Assembly (NCBI RefSeq): GCF_010093445.1
Contig: NZ_PDWW01000004.1
Coordinates: forward strand, 62,001 to 126,000
Origin: Pseudoxanthomonas japonensis
Lineage (GTDB): Bacteria > Pseudomonadota > Gammaproteobacteria > Xanthomonadales > Xanthomonadaceae
Direction: 5' to 3'
DNA length: 64,000 nt
This document shows positions 1,060 through 7,230 of this stretch, one piece after another. The notes under the pieces were generated by a model. The model was not told the origin of the DNA. It saw nothing but the letters and a program-made list of their open reading frames with translations, and searched no databases. The translations under genes and the position numbers were made by a program. The stretch's first letter is position 1. Each line of letters begins with the position of its first letter.

Positions 1060-1081
1060 AGCGGAGCAAGCTCCGCTCTAC
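1060..1081 (-). repeat. GTAG-type REP palindrome overlapping a stop codon
   Basis: A second copy of the AGCGGAGC hairpin ending in CTAC. On the minus strand its leading GTAG contains the TAG stop codon (1078-1080) of the AraC-family gene, so the repeat sits exactly at the end of the coding sequence. Confidence 0.7.
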
Positions 1082-2115
1082 GCGGGTGACCGCCGCGTCT
1101 CGCTCGGCGTGTGTCCGGTCCAGCGCTTGAATGCGCGGCGGAACTCGCGCACGTCGTTGAAGCCGATCTGGCTGCCGACGCTGGCGATGGTCGTTTCCGC
1201 ATCCTGCAGCAGTTCCAGCGCACGTTCGGTGCGTACACGGTCGTGCACGGCGCTGAAGCTGGTGCCTTCCTCGGCGAGCTGGCGGCGCAGCGTGCGCTCG
1301 CTCAGGTGCAGCGCGGTGGCAACGTCGGTCATCTGCGGGTTGTCGCGCAGGCGTGGCCGCAACTGGCGTTCGACCGCGGCGGTGGTCTCGCCGCGCAGCG
1401 ACATCGCGGTGAGTTGCGCCCGGCACAGCGCGAGCGCCTGTCGCGAGGTCACCGGGTTGTAGCTGGCGAACGGCAGCTCCATCCAGCGCCGGTCCACCAC
1501 CATGGCGTGCTGCGGCTGGTCGAAACGCACCTCGCAGCCGAACAGGTCGCCGTAGCGCGCGGCGTAACGTGGCGCCGGATAGCCAAGCTCAAGCCGAACC
1601 GGATGGAACTCCGGACCCGCCAGTTCGCGCGCCAGCATCAGCGTGCTGGCGAACATCTCCTCGCACAGGAACGGCAGCAGGTCGGCGGCTTCGTCCGGCG
1701 CGGTGGCAACCACGGCCAGGCTGCCGTCGTCGCGGTCCTGCATGTCCAGGTCCATCAGCGGACCGAGGTTGCGCTGGTACTCCAGCCCGATCTGCACCGC
1801 GTCGCCGAACGTCGGCGCTGTCTTCATCGCCAGCCCCAGCAGGCCGAAGTTGCCGCCGTTCTGCTTCTCGCCCATGGCCAGGCCCACGCCGTCGATGGGC
1901 AGGGTCGGCAGGGCGCGGCGGATGATCTCGCTGGCCTGGCGGTAGGACACGCGGGCCAGCGGGTCGTGGATCTCCTGCACGTTCATCCGCATGCCGGCGA
2001 ACCAGCCCTCGGCGTTCACGCCGAACTCGCCGGCGAGCAGCACCAGCCCGCACAGCATGTTGGTGGGCAGGTTGGCGATCGACAGGCGATTGCCCAGTCC
2101 GGTTTTCCAGCGCAT
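1078..2115 (-). CDS. AraC-family transcriptional regulator with arabinose-binding-like N-terminal domain
   Basis: A 345-residue DNA-binding regulator. The N-terminal part (about residues 20-210) resembles the ligand-sensing domain of OruR-like AraC regulators. The C-terminal 100 residues form a double helix-turn-helix, with LHLSERTLRRQLAEEG in the first and IGFNDVREFRRAFKRWTG in the second, the family signature. The ATG at 2115 was chosen over an upstream in-frame start because it has a good GGAGGGG site in front and leaves a free divergent promoter region. The gene is transcribed away from the beta-helix/diheme/TonB-receptor genes (2235-7170), so control of that module is the most likely role (inference). 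The inducer is unknown. Its stop codon is provided by a REP element. Confidence 0.85.
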   Translation of the reverse strand: MRWKTGLGNRLSIANLPTNMLCGLVLLAGEFGVNAEGWFAGMRMNVQEIHDPLARVSYRQASEIIRRALPTLPIDGVGLAMGEKQNGGNFGLLGLAMKTAPTFGDAVQIGLEYQRNLGPLMDLDMQDRDDGSLAVVATAPDEAADLLPFLCEEMFASTLMLARELAGPEFHPVRLELGYPAPRYAARYGDLFGCEVRFDQPQHAMVVDRRWMELPFASYNPVTSRQALALCRAQLTAMSLRGETTAAVERQLRPRLRDNPQMTDVATALHLSERTLRRQLAEEGTSFSAVHDRVRTERALELLQDAETTIASVGSQIGFNDVREFRRAFKRWTGHTPSETRRSPA

Positions 2116-2234
2116 CGGAGCCCCTCCAGCTTGTCCGCTTTGCCCCCCGTAGTATGCCGCTCCCGCCCTCCGTGTCGCACCTGCCCGCACACCAGACTGC
2201 GGGGCACTACGCAGGCGTATGGGAGGGGAGACTC

Positions 2235-3470
2235 ATGCAGCGCATCATGTCCGTGGCAGTGGCCGGCGCCTTGGCGCTCGTGGTGGGCGCTTGCCAGCCC
2301 AAGGCGCCCGAAACCGCCAGCGCCCCGGCGGCCGACGCCGGCTTCGCCGCCACCCTGCAGGAGCGCCTGCTGGACGCCAGGCCGGGCGACGTCATCGACA
2401 TCCCGGCCGGCCGCCACCGCTTCGACCGCAGCCTGACCCTGCGCGCGGACGGGGTGACCATCCGCGGCGCCGGCATGGACAAGAGCGTGCTGAGCTTCAA
2501 GGGGCAGAAGGCCGGCGCCGAGGGCCTGCTGGTCAATGGCGACGACTTCACCATCGAGAACCTCACCATCGAGGATTCCAGGGGCGACGGCCTGAAGATC
2601 AGCGAGTCGTCGAACATCACCATCCGCGGCGTCAAGGTGCAATGGACCGGCGGGCCGAGCACGAAGAACGGCGCCTACGGCATCTACCCCGTGCTGACGA
2701 AGAACGTGCTGATCGAGGACACCGTGTCGATCGGCGCGTCCGATGCCGGCATCTACGTGGGCCAGTCCGATGGCGTGATCGTGCGCCGCAGCCGCGCCGA
2801 GCAGAACGTGGCCGGCATCGAGATCGAGAACACCATCAACGCCGACGTCTACGAGAACGTCGCCACCGGCAACACCGGCGGCATCCTGGTGTTCAACATG
2901 CCGGGCCTGTCGCAGCAGGGCGGCAACATCCGCGTCTACGACAACAAGGTGATCGCCAACAACCACGAGAATTTCGGCGCCAAGGGCACGCCGGTGGCCA
3001 GCGTGCCGGCGGGATCGGGCATCGTGATCAATTCCAACGACGACATCGAAGTGTTCGGCAACGAGATCCGCGACAACGCGACCGCCAACATCATCGTCTC
3101 CAGCGTCTATTCCACCGGCTACAAGGACAGCAGCGCCTCGCCCAACTTCGACCCGTATCCGGAGCGCATCTTCATCCATGGCAATACCCTGTCGGGAGGC
3201 GGCGATTCGCCCGACGGGTTCGACCTGAAGGCGTTGAAGGTGGCGACCTACGGCCTGCGCGGCAATTTCCCCGACGTGCTGTGGGACGGTTACTACAACA
3301 AGGACCGCGTGGTGGACGGCAAGAAGACCGGTCCGCAGATCTGCCTGCGCGACGTCAACGGCGTGGTCAACGCCGATGGTCCGGGCGGCTACAGGAATCC
3401 GAACAAGGACGCGAAGGTGCACGACTGCGAGCTGCCGCGTTTGCCGGCGGTCGACCTGAAGCGCGGTTGA
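2235..3470 (+). CDS. Parallel beta-helix repeat lipoprotein (two-gene-pair family, function unknown)
   Basis: A 411-residue exported protein. It opens with a lipoprotein-type signal ending VVGAC (Cys 20). The body shows stacked short beta repeats with the rhythm of right-handed parallel beta-helix proteins: FTIENLTIED, NITIRGVKV, VLIEDTVSIG, VIVRRSRAEQN, ADVYENVATGN, IRVYDNKVIANN and IEVFGNEIRDN, rich in Asn turns. Such folds bind or cleave polysaccharides or act as scaffolds. Two cysteines in the last 60 residues could form a disulfide. From family knowledge, this type occurs almost always next to a diheme protein like the next gene, and the function of the pair is not known. The ATG at 2235 follows GGGAGGGGA; an upstream in-frame ATG would bury the signal peptide. 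Likely cotranscribed with 3482-4654, 11 bases away. Confidence 0.85.
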   Translation: MQRIMSVAVAGALALVVGACQPKAPETASAPAADAGFAATLQERLLDARPGDVIDIPAGRHRFDRSLTLRADGVTIRGAGMDKSVLSFKGQKAGAEGLLVNGDDFTIENLTIEDSRGDGLKISESSNITIRGVKVQWTGGPSTKNGAYGIYPVLTKNVLIEDTVSIGASDAGIYVGQSDGVIVRRSRAEQNVAGIEIENTINADVYENVATGNTGGILVFNMPGLSQQGGNIRVYDNKVIANNHENFGAKGTPVASVPAGSGIVINSNDDIEVFGNEIRDNATANIIVSSVYSTGYKDSSASPNFDPYPERIFIHGNTLSGGGDSPDGFDLKALKVATYGLRGNFPDVLWDGYYNKDRVVDGKKTGPQICLRDVNGVVNADGPGGYRNPNKDAKVHDCELPRLPAVDLKRG

Positions 3471-3481
3471 GGCGCTCGCGC

Positions 3482-4654
3482 ATGCGGTATCGCGTGGTGA
3501 TATGGCTTGCCGTCCTGGTGGCGTGCATGGCGCTGCCCGCGTGCAGGCAGGCACCGCAGGTGCATTTCTTCGCCGAAGGCCAGCCGGCGGCGCTGGACGA
3601 GTGGGGGGTGCTGCGAGTCGAAGACGGTCATCTGCGCCTCAACGAAGGCGTGGTGCCCTACGACCTCAACACGCCGTTGTTCAGCGACTACGCGCACAAG
3701 CTGCGCACCGTGTGGATGCCGGCGGGCACATCGGCGACGTACCAGGCGGAGCAGAGCTTCGACTTTCCCGTCGGCACCATCCTCAGCAAGACGTTCTACT
3801 ACCCGTTGCCGGAAGGAAAGCCGTGGGATGGCACGTCCGTCGCACGCACGCCGCCGTCGCAGTCGTCGCTGGAAGGCGAGGCGCTGGACCTGGCCAAGGT
3901 ACGCCTGATCGAGACACGCCTGCTCGTGCACCGGGCCGAGGGCTGGGTGGCGCTGCCTTACGTGTGGAATGACGCGCAGACGGCGGCGACGCTGAAGCGC
4001 ACCGGCGAACTGGTCGCGCTCGAACTCGTCGATGCGCAGGGCAAGCGCGAGTCCGCCGATTACCAGGTGCCTGACCAGAACCAGTGCGGCGGTTGCCACA
4101 TCACCGACAACAAGTCGCGCAAGCTGCTGCCGATCGGTCCGAAGGCGCGGCACCTGAACCGCGACTTCGACTATGCGGGCGGCAAGGAGAACCAGCTGGC
4201 GCATCTGGTGCGCGTCGGGTACCTGACCGGCGTGCCTGCGTCGCCGCCGCGGCTGGCCGACGCCATGGATGCGCAGGCGCCGCTCGATGCGCGCGCGCGC
4301 GCCTACCTGGATGTCAATTGCGGCCATTGCCACAGCGCCACCGGCCCGGCGATCACCTCGGGCCTGTGGCTGGATGCGCACACGCAGGACCGGCTGAAGC
4401 TGGGCTTCTGCAAGCAGCCGATCGCGGCGGGCAAGGGGACCGGCAACCGGCGCTACGACATCGTGCCGGGGCATGCGGCCGATTCCATCTTCGACTACCG
4501 GTTGGACAGCGACGACCCCGCGATCATGATGCCGGAGCTGGGGCGCTCGGTCGTCCATCGGGAAGGGGTCGAACTGATCCGCGCATGGATCGACGCGCAG
4601 GCAGGCAGTTGCGATACGGCAAGTAAGGAAAGTGAACCACCGCCGGCCACCTGA
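3482..4654 (+). CDS. Diheme c-type lipoprotein, SO2930/HNE_0200 family
   Basis: A 390-residue exported protein with a signal peptide ending in a lipobox-like LPAC (Cys 21). It carries two covalent heme-c sites: CGGCH near residues 202-206 and CGHCH near 280-284. A MMPELG segment near the C-terminus contains methionines that could be distal heme ligands. The N-terminal 190 residues have no heme motif and resemble no enzyme I recognise. Members of this family are found beside beta-helix lipoproteins like the preceding gene. An electron-transfer or redox-enzyme role on the periplasmic or outer-membrane surface is inferred from the hemes only. The start codon lies 11 bases after the beta-helix stop, and the receptor gene begins about 35 bases downstream, so all three probably form one operon. 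Confidence 0.85.
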   Translation: MRYRVVIWLAVLVACMALPACRQAPQVHFFAEGQPAALDEWGVLRVEDGHLRLNEGVVPYDLNTPLFSDYAHKLRTVWMPAGTSATYQAEQSFDFPVGTILSKTFYYPLPEGKPWDGTSVARTPPSQSSLEGEALDLAKVRLIETRLLVHRAEGWVALPYVWNDAQTAATLKRTGELVALELVDAQGKRESADYQVPDQNQCGGCHITDNKSRKLLPIGPKARHLNRDFDYAGGKENQLAHLVRVGYLTGVPASPPRLADAMDAQAPLDARARAYLDVNCGHCHSATGPAITSGLWLDAHTQDRLKLGFCKQPIAAGKGTGNRRYDIVPGHAADSIFDYRLDSDDPAIMMPELGRSVVHREGVELIRAWIDAQAGSCDTASKESEPPPAT

Positions 4655-4689
4655 GGCCGGTTTCCGCACAACGCTTCCGGGAGGGCGTG

Positions 4690-7170
4690 ATGAGAGTGAT
4701 GCAACGGAATCTGGTCGTGGGGCTTCGGCGCGCGCTGTTCGGCGGTTGCGTGGCGCTGGGCGCGAGCGGGTCGGCCTGGGCACAGGCGACGCCTGAAGGG
4801 GAACAGCAGGCCACCAACCTCGACACCATCACCGTCACCGCGCAGAGTCGCCAGCAGGAACTGCAGGACGTGCCGATCGCGCTGCAGGTCGTCGACCAGC
4901 AACTGCTCGATGACGTTGCGGCGGAGAACCTGGGCGACATCGATGCGTTCGTGCCGGGCCTGGTGGTGGACGCCGCCCAGCCGACCCAGCCGTCGTTCCG
5001 CCTGCGTGGCGTGGAGACCAACGACTTCGGCATCGGCACCGATCCGGCGGTCGGCATCTTCGTCGACGGCGTGTACGGTGGTCGCGGCGGCGGCGTGCTG
5101 CTGCCGTTCCTCGACGTCGAGCGCATCGAAGTGCTGAAGGGGCCGCAGGGCACCCTGTTCGGACGCAATACCGCCGCGGGCGCGATCTCGCTGGTGACGC
5201 GGCGGCCGCAGGACGAGACCGAGGCGAGGTTGCGCCTGCGGCTCGGCAACTACGGCAAGCAGTACGTCGATGCGATGTGGAACATCCCGGTCAGCGACGT
5301 TTCCGCGTTCCGGGTGAATGCGCTGTTCAACCACAGCGACGGCTGGTTCCAGGATGGGGCCACCGGCAAGGACCTGGGCGGCGAGAACGTGTGGGCCGCG
5401 CGCGCGGCATGGCAGTTGCGCATCGGCGACAACACCACCGCGCTGCTGAGCTGGGACCATGAAAGCCTCGACCAGAACGGCCGCGTCACCACCGGCATCG
5501 TGCCGTTGCCGGCGTTTCCGCAACGGCCGCCGGTGCCGGTGGATCCGGACGATTACCTCGATCCGCGCAGGACGCCGACCTACAGCGATGCCGAGAATGC
5601 CGAGTGGCGCACGTTCGACGGCGTCAACCTGATCGTCGATCACGCCTTCACCTGGGGCAACCTGACCTCGACCTCGTCGTGGCGCGAGTACGACTCGAAG
5701 AACCAGACCGAGGAAGACGGCACCAACCGCGCCGACCTTTACATCGACTCCGTCAACACCGAAAGCAACGAGACCTTCTACCAGGAGTTCAAGTTCGCCG
5801 GCAGCACCGCGCGGCTGGACTGGGTGGCAGGCGCCAGCTATTTCAAGGAAGACGCCAGGCAGACCAGCGAGGTGAACACCAACACGACCGCGCTCGGCAG
5901 CATCCTGGCGAATCAGGGGTTCGCGGCACCGGCGGGCTTCCCGTTCGCGCCCGAGGGTACCCCTTTGCTGTTCGTCATGTCGCAGATCGGGCAGGCGAAC
6001 GGTTTGCCGTCGTTGCTGGGTTATGGCTGGAACGAAGTCTTCAACAACACCCTCGAAACCACGGCCTATGCGGCCTTTGGCGATGTCATCTGGCGCGCGA
6101 CCGACAAGCTGAACCTGACCTTCGGCCTGCGCTACACCCGCGACGAGAAGAGCTTCAGCTGGTTCAACGGACCGCGCAACGCAGCCGAGTTCGATGCGGT
6201 GCTGAATGCGTACCTCGGTGCCGGCATTCCGCAGATGTTCCTGGCGGATCTTCCGCCGGAAGCCGCAGCCCAGATCATGTACGCCCTCACCACCTCGGTG
6301 GCCTTCGTCGACCCGCCGGCGGTCGTCAACAAGGGAATCACCAATCGCGACAAGAAGAGCTGGAGCGACGTCAGCCCGCGCTTCGTGGTGGATTACCACC
6401 TCGACGACAGGACCATGGTGTTCGGCTCGCTGGCCAAGGGCTACAAGGCAGGCGGCTTCAACGCATTGCAGATCGGTCCGGCCTTCGAGAACGAGGATGT
6501 GTGGAACCTGGAGGCCGGCATCAAGCAGTCGCTGGGCCGTTTCGCCTGGAACGCCTCCGTGTTCCACTACCGCTACGACAACCGCCAGTCGGTGCGGCTG
6601 ATCGATCCGGACCCGAACAACCCGGTCGACATCCCGCGCTTCGTCTTCGACACCGGCGATCTGGAAGCGACCGGCATCGACGTCGACCTGCGCTGGAAGG
6701 TCACCGACGGCTTCACGCTGGACGCGCAGGCCGAGTGGATCGATTCCAAGTACAAGGACTACGTGACGCCGGAAGGCGTGGACCTGGATGGCGAGCCGAC
6801 CGGCGAACCGCGCTTCACCGCCTCGATGGGTGCGGCGTACAAGGTCGACCTGGCCGGTCATGGCGAACTTCGCTTCTCGGCGCGGCACGCCTACCGGGGC
6901 CGCAGCCGCTGCAACGAAGGCTCGGACCTGCAGGGCGATTGCGGTGTCAATGCGCTGCTCGACATCGGTGAGGCGCGCGACCGCACCGACGTCCGCATCG
7001 GCTGGACCGCGCCCAAGGGGCACTGGAGCTGGGCGGTCTACGGCAACAACGTGTTCGACAACCAGTATGTGAAGGGGCTGAACACCTATGGTCGCGGCCC
7101 GCTCGGTGTGGTGGGCGCCACCATCACGGAGCCGCGCACCTATGGCATGGAAGTGGCCGTGAAGTTCTGA
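4690..7170 (+). CDS. TonB-dependent outer-membrane receptor
   Basis: An 826-residue receptor of the large TonB-dependent transporter family, which imports bulky or scarce substrates across the outer membrane using proton motive force. A signal peptide ends near AWAQ, followed by a TonB-box-like DTITVTA, a plug domain (about residues 45-160: SFRLRGVETND, DGVYGGRGGG, VERIEVLKGPQGTLFGRNT) and a long 22-strand-type barrel ending in the aromatic C-terminal VAVKF. ATG 4690 is used; GTG 4687 and ATG 4699 are alternatives. The substrate cannot be read from the sequence. It is the last gene of the module with the beta-helix and diheme lipoproteins and is followed by a strong terminator. The plug resembles receptors abundant in xanthomonads, caulobacters and sphingomonads. 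Confidence 0.93.
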   Translation: MRVMQRNLVVGLRRALFGGCVALGASGSAWAQATPEGEQQATNLDTITVTAQSRQQELQDVPIALQVVDQQLLDDVAAENLGDIDAFVPGLVVDAAQPTQPSFRLRGVETNDFGIGTDPAVGIFVDGVYGGRGGGVLLPFLDVERIEVLKGPQGTLFGRNTAAGAISLVTRRPQDETEARLRLRLGNYGKQYVDAMWNIPVSDVSAFRVNALFNHSDGWFQDGATGKDLGGENVWAARAAWQLRIGDNTTALLSWDHESLDQNGRVTTGIVPLPAFPQRPPVPVDPDDYLDPRRTPTYSDAENAEWRTFDGVNLIVDHAFTWGNLTSTSSWREYDSKNQTEEDGTNRADLYIDSVNTESNETFYQEFKFAGSTARLDWVAGASYFKEDARQTSEVNTNTTALGSILANQGFAAPAGFPFAPEGTPLLFVMSQIGQANGLPSLLGYGWNEVFNNTLETTAYAAFGDVIWRATDKLNLTFGLRYTRDEKSFSWFNGPRNAAEFDAVLNAYLGAGIPQMFLADLPPEAAAQIMYALTTSVAFVDPPAVVNKGITNRDKKSWSDVSPRFVVDYHLDDRTMVFGSLAKGYKAGGFNALQIGPAFENEDVWNLEAGIKQSLGRFAWNASVFHYRYDNRQSVRLIDPDPNNPVDIPRFVFDTGDLEATGIDVDLRWKVTDGFTLDAQAEWIDSKYKDYVTPEGVDLDGEPTGEPRFTASMGAAYKVDLAGHGELRFSARHAYRGRSRCNEGSDLQGDCGVNALLDIGEARDRTDVRIGWTAPKGHWSWAVYGNNVFDNQYVKGLNTYGRGPLGVVGATITEPRTYGMEVAVKF

Positions 7171-7197
7171 GCCGCGCGGCGACGCGTCGGACGTGGG

Positions 7198-7230
7198 CCC
7201 CGGCATCGTGAGGTGCCGGGGTTTTTGTTT
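7198..7230 (+). terminator. Rho-independent terminator after the TonB-receptor gene
   Basis: An 8-bp stem CCCCGGCA/TGCCGGGG (7198-7205 with 7214-7221) is followed at once by TTTTTGTTT. It separates the accessory operon from recG. Confidence 0.85.

Follow-up and report, generated by a model that had tools for sequence, protein, structure and literature searches.

A conserved receptor operon of Pseudoxanthomonas japonensis pairs a beta-helix lipoprotein with a diheme cytochrome whose first heme domain appears to resemble cytochrome P460

Proteins of families TIGR03805 (beta-helix) and TIGR03806 (SO2930-type diheme cytochrome) form a widespread pair for which no function was found in the accessible portions of the literature on the families, on SO2930-SO2933 and under their product names. 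In Pseudomonas the pair is perhaps PA4926/PA4927. In the excerpts available PA4926 is listed among inserts that impair growth (PMC3922391), SO2930 and SO2931 are named as c-type cytochromes (PMC4837345, PMC5955497, PMC5829830, PMC12175506, PMC10986466, PMC5357785), SO2931, the diheme cytochrome of Shewanella, has been described as an outer-membrane lipoprotein, and the TIGR03805 annotation is carried by a Streptococcus surface protein (PMC5847202). A second described system that matters here is cytochrome P460, in which a lysine is cross-linked to heme; in the table consulted this residue is Lys70, Lys78 or Lys106, the last in NsP460 (PMC11928373 Table 2), and the excerpt available on McP460 places its Gly73 and Lys78 among five residues, besides CXXCH, that are conserved in 144 P460s (PMC6427953). 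According to the accessible part of a review, the related cytochromes c'-beta are without the cross-link lysine, which is also missing from some of the P460 homologues that we fetched. Here we describe a member of the TIGR03805/TIGR03806 pair that lies with two further genes in a 64,000-nucleotide stretch of Pseudoxanthomonas japonensis DNA (contig NZ_PDWW01000004.1, positions 62,001 to 126,000 of the forward strand; 'the window' in what follows). The four genes encode an AraC-family regulator (AraC), a beta-helix lipoprotein (PBH), a diheme c-type cytochrome lipoprotein (CYT) and a TonB-dependent receptor (TBDR). What is new is that the first heme domain of CYT resembles the P460/c'-beta fold and bears the Gly-x4-Lys cross-link signature, which makes a pair that has long been known without a function testable.

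The first-pass annotation of the window had proposed a four-gene surface module built around a known pair of families, and both the gene set and the pair are borne out. All four genes are real and have the order and strands that were put forward (Table 1), and PBH and CYT exceed the curated cut-offs of TIGR03805 beta_helix_1 (427 bits vs 141.5) and TIGR03806 (392 bits vs 313.3, with two CxxCH motifs), respectively. AraC matches PF12625 with 134.8 bits and HTH_18 with 75 bits, while TBDR lies above the cut-offs of both PF07715 Plug (66 bits) and the PF00593 barrel (107.3 bits); the gaps between genes amount to 11 bp (PBH-CYT) and 35 bp (CYT-TBDR). As in the pair described elsewhere the two genes are adjacent, and in the window both products have lipoboxes. 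The locus differs from the plain pair in its dedicated TonB receptor and divergent AraC, with one operator, and it thereby supplies the pair with a probable location (the outer membrane), a switch and an import partner.

The resemblance of CYT to cytochrome P460 came from the comparison of a predicted model (pLDDT 91.5) with solved structures by a second-look structure aligner, the sequence search of PBH and CYT against solved structures having returned nothing useful. The top ten matches are all cytochromes c'-beta/P460, with Z from 7.4 to 5.7, and the next entry has Z 4.0. Because a structure match of this size (Z < 8) is weak on its own, the resemblance was tested by sequence. Profile comparison of 199 CYT N-domains with P460 gave a probability of 77% and E 2.1e-5, and a subset of 31 divergent domains alone gave 76%. 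None of the 12 decoys (three further alignments, a reversed one and eight column shuffles) exceeded 0.5% or had an E below 0.11. The CYT side was drawn from 203 CYT-domain proteins, 12 of them without the motif in the stretch cut out and 199 aligned, and the P460 side from P460 homologues (PF16694), of which 11 were used and L241, which yielded no P460 frame, was left out (loci and genomes are cited by L and G numbers throughout).

In this comparison FPDGTILVK of CYT falls on FPVGTILSK of P460, and Lys103, placed at P460 Lys106 by counting on the sequence alignment, is a lysine in 199/199 domains, with Gly98 five residues earlier conserved in 198/199. CYT thus carries both the cross-link lysine and the glycine of the signature. 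Glu144 is likewise a glutamate in all 199 aligned domains and probably provides a distal carboxylate at heme 1. Apart from the heme motif itself, the N-domain has no His or Met that reaches 90% conservation, and the C-domain has an invariant Met350, so that heme 1 looks like a reactive type and heme 2 like an ordinary His/Met electron relay. The N-domain (residues ~27-254) shares with the cytochromes P460/c'-beta (PF16694) an FPxG[TS]xxxK-type motif and a CxxCH at the domain end, and its fold appears similar to theirs; CYT differs from them by its additional heme domain and by its association with a beta-helix protein. It also differs in finding no match to the PF16694 profile, which is why CYT is not filed as a P460. 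For CYT a heme-lysine cross-link and hydroxylamine oxidation are predictions at most.

In order to establish how tightly the four genes are linked we surveyed 247 genomes of the family to which Lysobacter, Luteimonas and Arenimonas belong. TIGR03806 exceeds its cut-off in 60 of these, with weaker matches in six others; the module receptor is matched at E <= 1e-120 in 60, and an AraC match of at least 242 bits is found in 60 as well, weaker ones of at most 176 bits occurring in three further genomes and as one second copy. The three sets are the same 60 genomes, and none of the other 187 has the cytochrome, receptor or regulator alone at the thresholds used, which for receptor and regulator were chosen after the linked genes were known; scoring covered the 4 best receptor candidates and the 8 best regulator candidates of each genome. 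This equality of sets covers cytochrome, receptor and regulator; PBH was checked at the 58 loci that were fetched, and every one of the 58 has all four genes in the same order, AraC divergent and the other three co-directional. In the two genomes that were not fetched, G176 and G240, matches to cytochrome, receptor and regulator fall inside a 7-kb stretch of a single contig. Because cytochrome, receptor and regulator occur in an identical 60 of 247 genomes, the linkage is far beyond chance in the family. The tie of AraC and TonB receptor to the pair that had been claimed from the window is accordingly tight among its relatives, and the refuting condition named along with that claim, a receptor and AraC unlinked to the pair in related genomes, does not hold inside the order.

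The operon is flanked by ridA and recG in the genome of the window, a location that recurs in 53/58 fetched loci, the module lying elsewhere in 5/58. The gene caller missed AraC in L029, L041 and L067, where it is found by tblastn, and in L173, the same contig stretch as L029. Identical PBH stretches mark L029/L173, L031/L166, L078/L163, L036/L172 and L090/L217 as repeated loci, and those of L058/L062, also identical, come from two genomes. At L074 (G101) the receptor is split in two frames (483 + 283 aa), a broken gene or a sequencing error, and the recG match there is weak and short. Four module-free family genomes (L082, L083, L084, L120) have a divergent, stand-alone TIGR03806-like cytochrome (160-183 bits) adjoining a second small cytochrome-like protein with the motif C[HN]DCHTP.

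The named loci are the 80 top-ranking ones among 567 confirmed matches to the L103 PBH, so that counts outside the family come from a non-random sample. Twelve loci belong to the sister group (11 from Dyella, Rhodanobacter and Dokdonella, and L096, probably of the Rhodanobacteraceae), and within four genes of the pair TBDR is present in 11/12 and AraC in 10/12; AraC runs in the direction of the operon in the Dyella, Rhodanobacter and Dokdonella loci that have it and is divergent in L096. Beyond the order the picture changes. Among 101 other loci (96 with CYT nearby, and with L090 and L217, the same locus, both counted) a module-type TBDR stands beside 8 and a TetR gene (profile > 100 bits) beside 8, and in genus g155, presumably Sphingomonas-like and over cut-off in 45/166 genomes, a module-type TBDR stands beside 2/23 loci (20 fetched for the purpose together with G466, G472 and G484 fetched earlier). 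No AraC above 200 bits was found beside the pair in either the 101 or the 23, and five PBH loci (L207, L213, L216, L223, L225) have no cytochrome nearby. Since most sampled pairs outside the order are without receptor and AraC, we take PBH and CYT as the core, to which the receptor has been added; the claimed linkage holds for the family and mostly for the sister group, and for few of the pairs sampled further out.

The receptors that are linked form one subfamily. Outside the main family the intact ones reach 530-1142 bits against the module profile, with lower scores for those that are split or miscalled; the receptor of L269 has 713 bits, and five unlinked receptors in the compared loci score at most 174 bits. 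Outside the order a receptor of this subfamily lies beside the pair in L088, L101, L103, L203, L206, L209, L221, L230, L236 and L269, with TetR near in 7/10 (L088, L103, L203, L206, L221, L230, L236). Since one receptor subfamily recurs, mostly with TetR, the association of receptor and pair is, to judge from these sequences, old or recurrent and the regulator exchangeable. In three loci that are Shewanella-like by inference (L085, L086, L123) PBH and CYT are fused into one protein of ~870 residues, and the adjoining AraC is more distant and of the same domain type. Elsewhere L155 has three tandem TIGR03806-like cytochrome genes on one short contig, and in L105, L162, L176 and L188 a gene that by eye is squalene-hopene cyclase-like is convergent to the pair or near it.

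The intergenic region between AraC and PBH contains a block of the form TTGTCCG-N-TTT-N-CCCCCC-N4-TATGCCG-N5-GCCC, which in this strict form matches 36/56 intergenic regions. A looser form, written after inspection of the alignment, matches 54/56 and the three loci with caller-missed AraC, 57/59 in all; none of 11,200 mononucleotide shuffles match it, and all 57 matches lie in module promoters (2.35 Mb searched, 132 loci). A search of the window's 4.08 Mb genome for a 28-base operator core, with fixed spacing and at most 3 mismatches allowed, found this one site and no second, from which we infer that AraC is a dedicated, single-target regulator and a local switch. A single conserved operator upstream of PBH fits the ligand-inducible local operon that had been envisaged. 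The label 'OruR-like' given to the regulator is a different matter, as it could not be confirmed: no OruR model is among the NCBIfam matches (no OruR sequence was compared), and the nearest models, QhpR, GliR and CypR, are all far below cut-off (140.1, 124.6 and 112.4 bits vs 250, 570 and 500).

PBH is modeled as a right-handed beta-helix (pLDDT 91.4), and its nearest folds are the mannuronan C-5 epimerases AlgE6 and AlgE4 (Z 33, with 22-23% identity over 288-291 residues and 2.4 A over 288). The catalytic residues of AlgE are given as Tyr149, Asp152, His154 and Asp178 in the part of the source consulted (PMC7385640). Among 45 PBH sequences no histidine reaches 90% conservation, and His154, the one catalytic residue compared, is therefore without a conserved counterpart. 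The residues that are invariant in these 45 sequences (Tyr148, Tyr151, Tyr174, Gln177, Glu196, Glu198, Phe220 and Met222) are instead found on or beside strands of successive coils of the model, where they are predicted to line one groove. PBH thus has the helix of the AlgE A-module and differs from it in its lack of a conserved His, its lipoprotein nature and its pairing with a cytochrome.

Oxidoreductases recur near the pair in relatives. An aldehyde dehydrogenase (related to that of L165) follows the receptor in 10/12 sister-group loci, in L209 and in L059, a member of the main family, so that the earlier statement that no cytosolic enzyme is included is correct for the operon in the window and not for these relatives. 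Four loci have a PQQ alcohol dehydrogenase close to the pair (L125, where it is convergent, L186, L194 and L196), followed by a receptor in L125 and L186, and in L269 an FAD-linked oxidoreductase above the TIGR01679 cut-off (365.5 bits) overlaps CYT by 4 bp. In L117, L118 and L119 a divergent TIGR03806 domain (170-234 bits, below cut-off in all three) is found behind PQQ glucose/sorbosone dehydrogenase domains. As in CYT the diheme domain goes with a substrate domain, to which it is C-terminal; the partner in the module is a beta-helix, and in the fused PBH-CYT proteins PBH occupies the very position that is held by the PQQ dehydrogenase domain in L117-L119. These PQQ fusion proteins are 1158-2310 aa long, and in the one from L119 there are PSD/PSCyt domains (DUF1585-1595), PKD and CBM26 in addition.

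Taken together these data lead us to a tentative reading, to which we give a little less than an even chance, of the locus as a self-contained, inducible outer-membrane module for substrate oxidation and uptake. AraC would sense one ligand and act at one operator between its own gene and PBH, presumably by binding and activation. PBH and CYT, because of their lipoboxes, probably sit on the outer membrane, where PBH, an epimerase-like helix without the conserved catalytic His, would bind and present the substrate. CYT would perform or receive the oxidation, at or through heme 1, whose P460/c'-beta-like domain has Lys103 and Glu144 as invariant residues; electrons would leave via heme 2 with its predicted His/Met ligands, and TBDR would import the substrate or the product. 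The last step on the product would fall to an aldehyde dehydrogenase, which in relatives is encoded next to the receptor and in this genome elsewhere. Our guess is that the substrate has an alcohol, aldehyde or N-hydroxy group. The scheme of ligand sensing, capture, redox and import drawn from the window at the outset is retained here as the best outline; the hydrocarbon that had been guessed as its substrate gains little support in this family.

This reading is supported by the all-or-none profile in 60/247 genomes, the single operator, the recurrent receptor, the oxidoreductase neighbors, the PQQ fusions and the P460 link. Several observations weigh against it. Foldseek with the CYT model gave no match at E <= 0.001, and the best structure match by the second aligner is modest (Z 7.4, rmsd 3.8, 132 residues). 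Values of Z below 8 can reflect a common arrangement. A first profile comparison, of a 54-row CYT alignment with P460, gave a probability of 16% and E 0.0016, and the PF16694 profile is not among the CYT matches at E <= 0.1. Most of the pairs sampled outside the order have neither a receptor nor an oxidoreductase neighbor, and aldehyde dehydrogenases are common in any case, being found in 40/40 family genomes with the module vs 33/40 without it. A bolder extension, which we consider possible and on balance doubtful, is that the P460 superfamily has a third branch, with two hemes, in the SO2930 cytochromes of many proteobacteria beyond nitrifiers and methanotrophs, and that these are outer-membrane enzymes. 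A Lys-modified P460-type heme would then oxidize a substrate that a re-purposed beta-helix presents to it, and electrons would exit through the His/Met heme; the family would have welded this cytochrome into an inducible receptor module, and elsewhere a PQQ dehydrogenase domain would replace the beta-helix. If true, the distribution of P460-type hemes reaches far beyond the nitrogen-cycle bacteria of their discovery.

Other explanations draw on the same neighbors and folds. PBH, CYT and TBDR might capture an alkane, fatty alcohol or terpenoid and start its oxidation, as suggested by L158, where PBH, CYT, ferredoxin and CYP153 genes run in one direction (CYP153A7 522 bits), and by the L165 aldehyde dehydrogenase, whose nearest solved relatives are class-3, fatty- and steroid-aldehyde enzymes. 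A FadL-type gene lies within 5 genes in 7/12 Dyella-type loci and before the fused PBH-CYT of L114, a VolA/Pla-1 phospholipase gene is found two genes from AraC, beyond sohB, in the Shewanella-like L085, and the pair of L205 has a P450-reductase fusion and Mo-oxidoreductase subunits upstream. The alkane-induced receptors OmpS and TOL_0244, proposed for hydrophobic substrates in the portion of the source available (PMC6304351), are of the same TonB receptor class as TBDR, but TBDR scores 62.9 bits against the TOL_0244 cut-off of 645 and is not a member. Moreover, CYP153 was found in 0/80 family genomes, half of which have the module, by a search that had no positive control; nor does it accompany the pair at 20 further loci of genus g155 or at the sister locus L261. 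The VolA and FadL neighbors are not clearly co-transcribed, and L269, with an FAD-linked sugar-lactone-oxidase-like enzyme and a hydroxyaspartate-aldolase-like protein, has a polar theme. We hold uptake of a hydrophobic compound to be unlikely, and the hydrocarbon guess of the first-pass annotation, for which one CYP153 operon speaks, finds little support. Acquisition of a metal, heme or siderophore, with TBDR importing a chelate, PBH serving as a NosD-like metal helix and CYT as a metal reductase or oxidase, strikes us as distinctly unlikely. The plug of TBDR does resemble siderophore receptors (62.9 bits to the pesticin receptor 4epa), and PBH matches the broader Pfam NosD family (PF05048, 38.8 bits vs a cut-off of 23.6) and NosD structures with Z 27, but TBDR falls below the cut-off of the siderophore receptor family TIGR01783 (151.1 bits vs 223.5), its 17 matches to solved structures are all within the first 234 residues except for one weak one (5nec), PBH reaches 38.6 bits against a cut-off of 300 for the NosD family TIGR04247, and the operon is without a metal transporter.

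The AlgE-like fold of PBH, its further matches to other polysaccharide-active helices and the TIGR03805 annotation of Bcam1339, placed in an exopolysaccharide cluster in the excerpt consulted (PMC3584217), would suit binding or utilization of an acidic polysaccharide, with PBH an alginate-epimerase- or lyase-like protein that feeds the receptor. Set against this are the missing counterpart of His154, the lack of a glycosidase, lyase or sugar transporter in the window operon and a heme partner that has no role in epimerase or lyase chemistry, and we rate the proposal as very improbable. There is a similarly slim chance that receptor and regulator are only historical neighbors of PBH and CYT, which would then be an independent respiratory or stress pair, as the majority of pairs sampled outside the order, having neither, would suggest; the co-retention in 60/60 genomes, with no lone cytochrome, receptor or regulator in the other 187 at the thresholds used, and a receptor subfamily that is linked to the pair again and again in distant lineages argue against this.

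Table 1. Positions within the window of the module genes and of the sites discussed in the text
Feature	Position	Strand	Remarks
AraC-family regulator, PF12625 sensor domain and HTH_18	1078-2115	-	divergent from operon
Operator block, presumed AraC binding site	2131-2168	+	conserved in module intergenic regions
PBH, right-handed parallel beta-helix lipoprotein, lipobox Cys20	2235-3470	+	TIGR03805
CYT, SO2930-family diheme c-type cytochrome lipoprotein, lipobox Cys21	3482-4654	+	TIGR03806
Lys103 codon of CYT	3788-3790	+	aligned with P460 heme-cross-linking lysine
Heme 1 motif CGGCH, CYT residues 202-206	4085-4099	+	from sequence; C202, C205, H206 invariant in CYT alignment
Heme 2 motif CGHCH, CYT residues 280-284	4319-4333	+	from sequence; invariant Met350 the likely axial ligand
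TBDR, TonB-dependent receptor of PBH-linked subfamily	4690-7170	+	Plug and barrel
Terminator-like hairpin with T tail, 3' end of operon	7195-7224	+	consensus match only

The hairpin at the 3' end of the operon has 13 pairs, 8 of them GC, and such matches number 6 vs 3.4 +/- 2.0 in shuffles. At the opposite end, window positions ~1053-1083 hold a repeat of ~30 bases (AGCGGAGCAAGCTCCGCTCTACG type), palindromic by eye and with 34 further matches genome-wide, a dispersed REP-like element that adjoins ridA and the 3' end of AraC.

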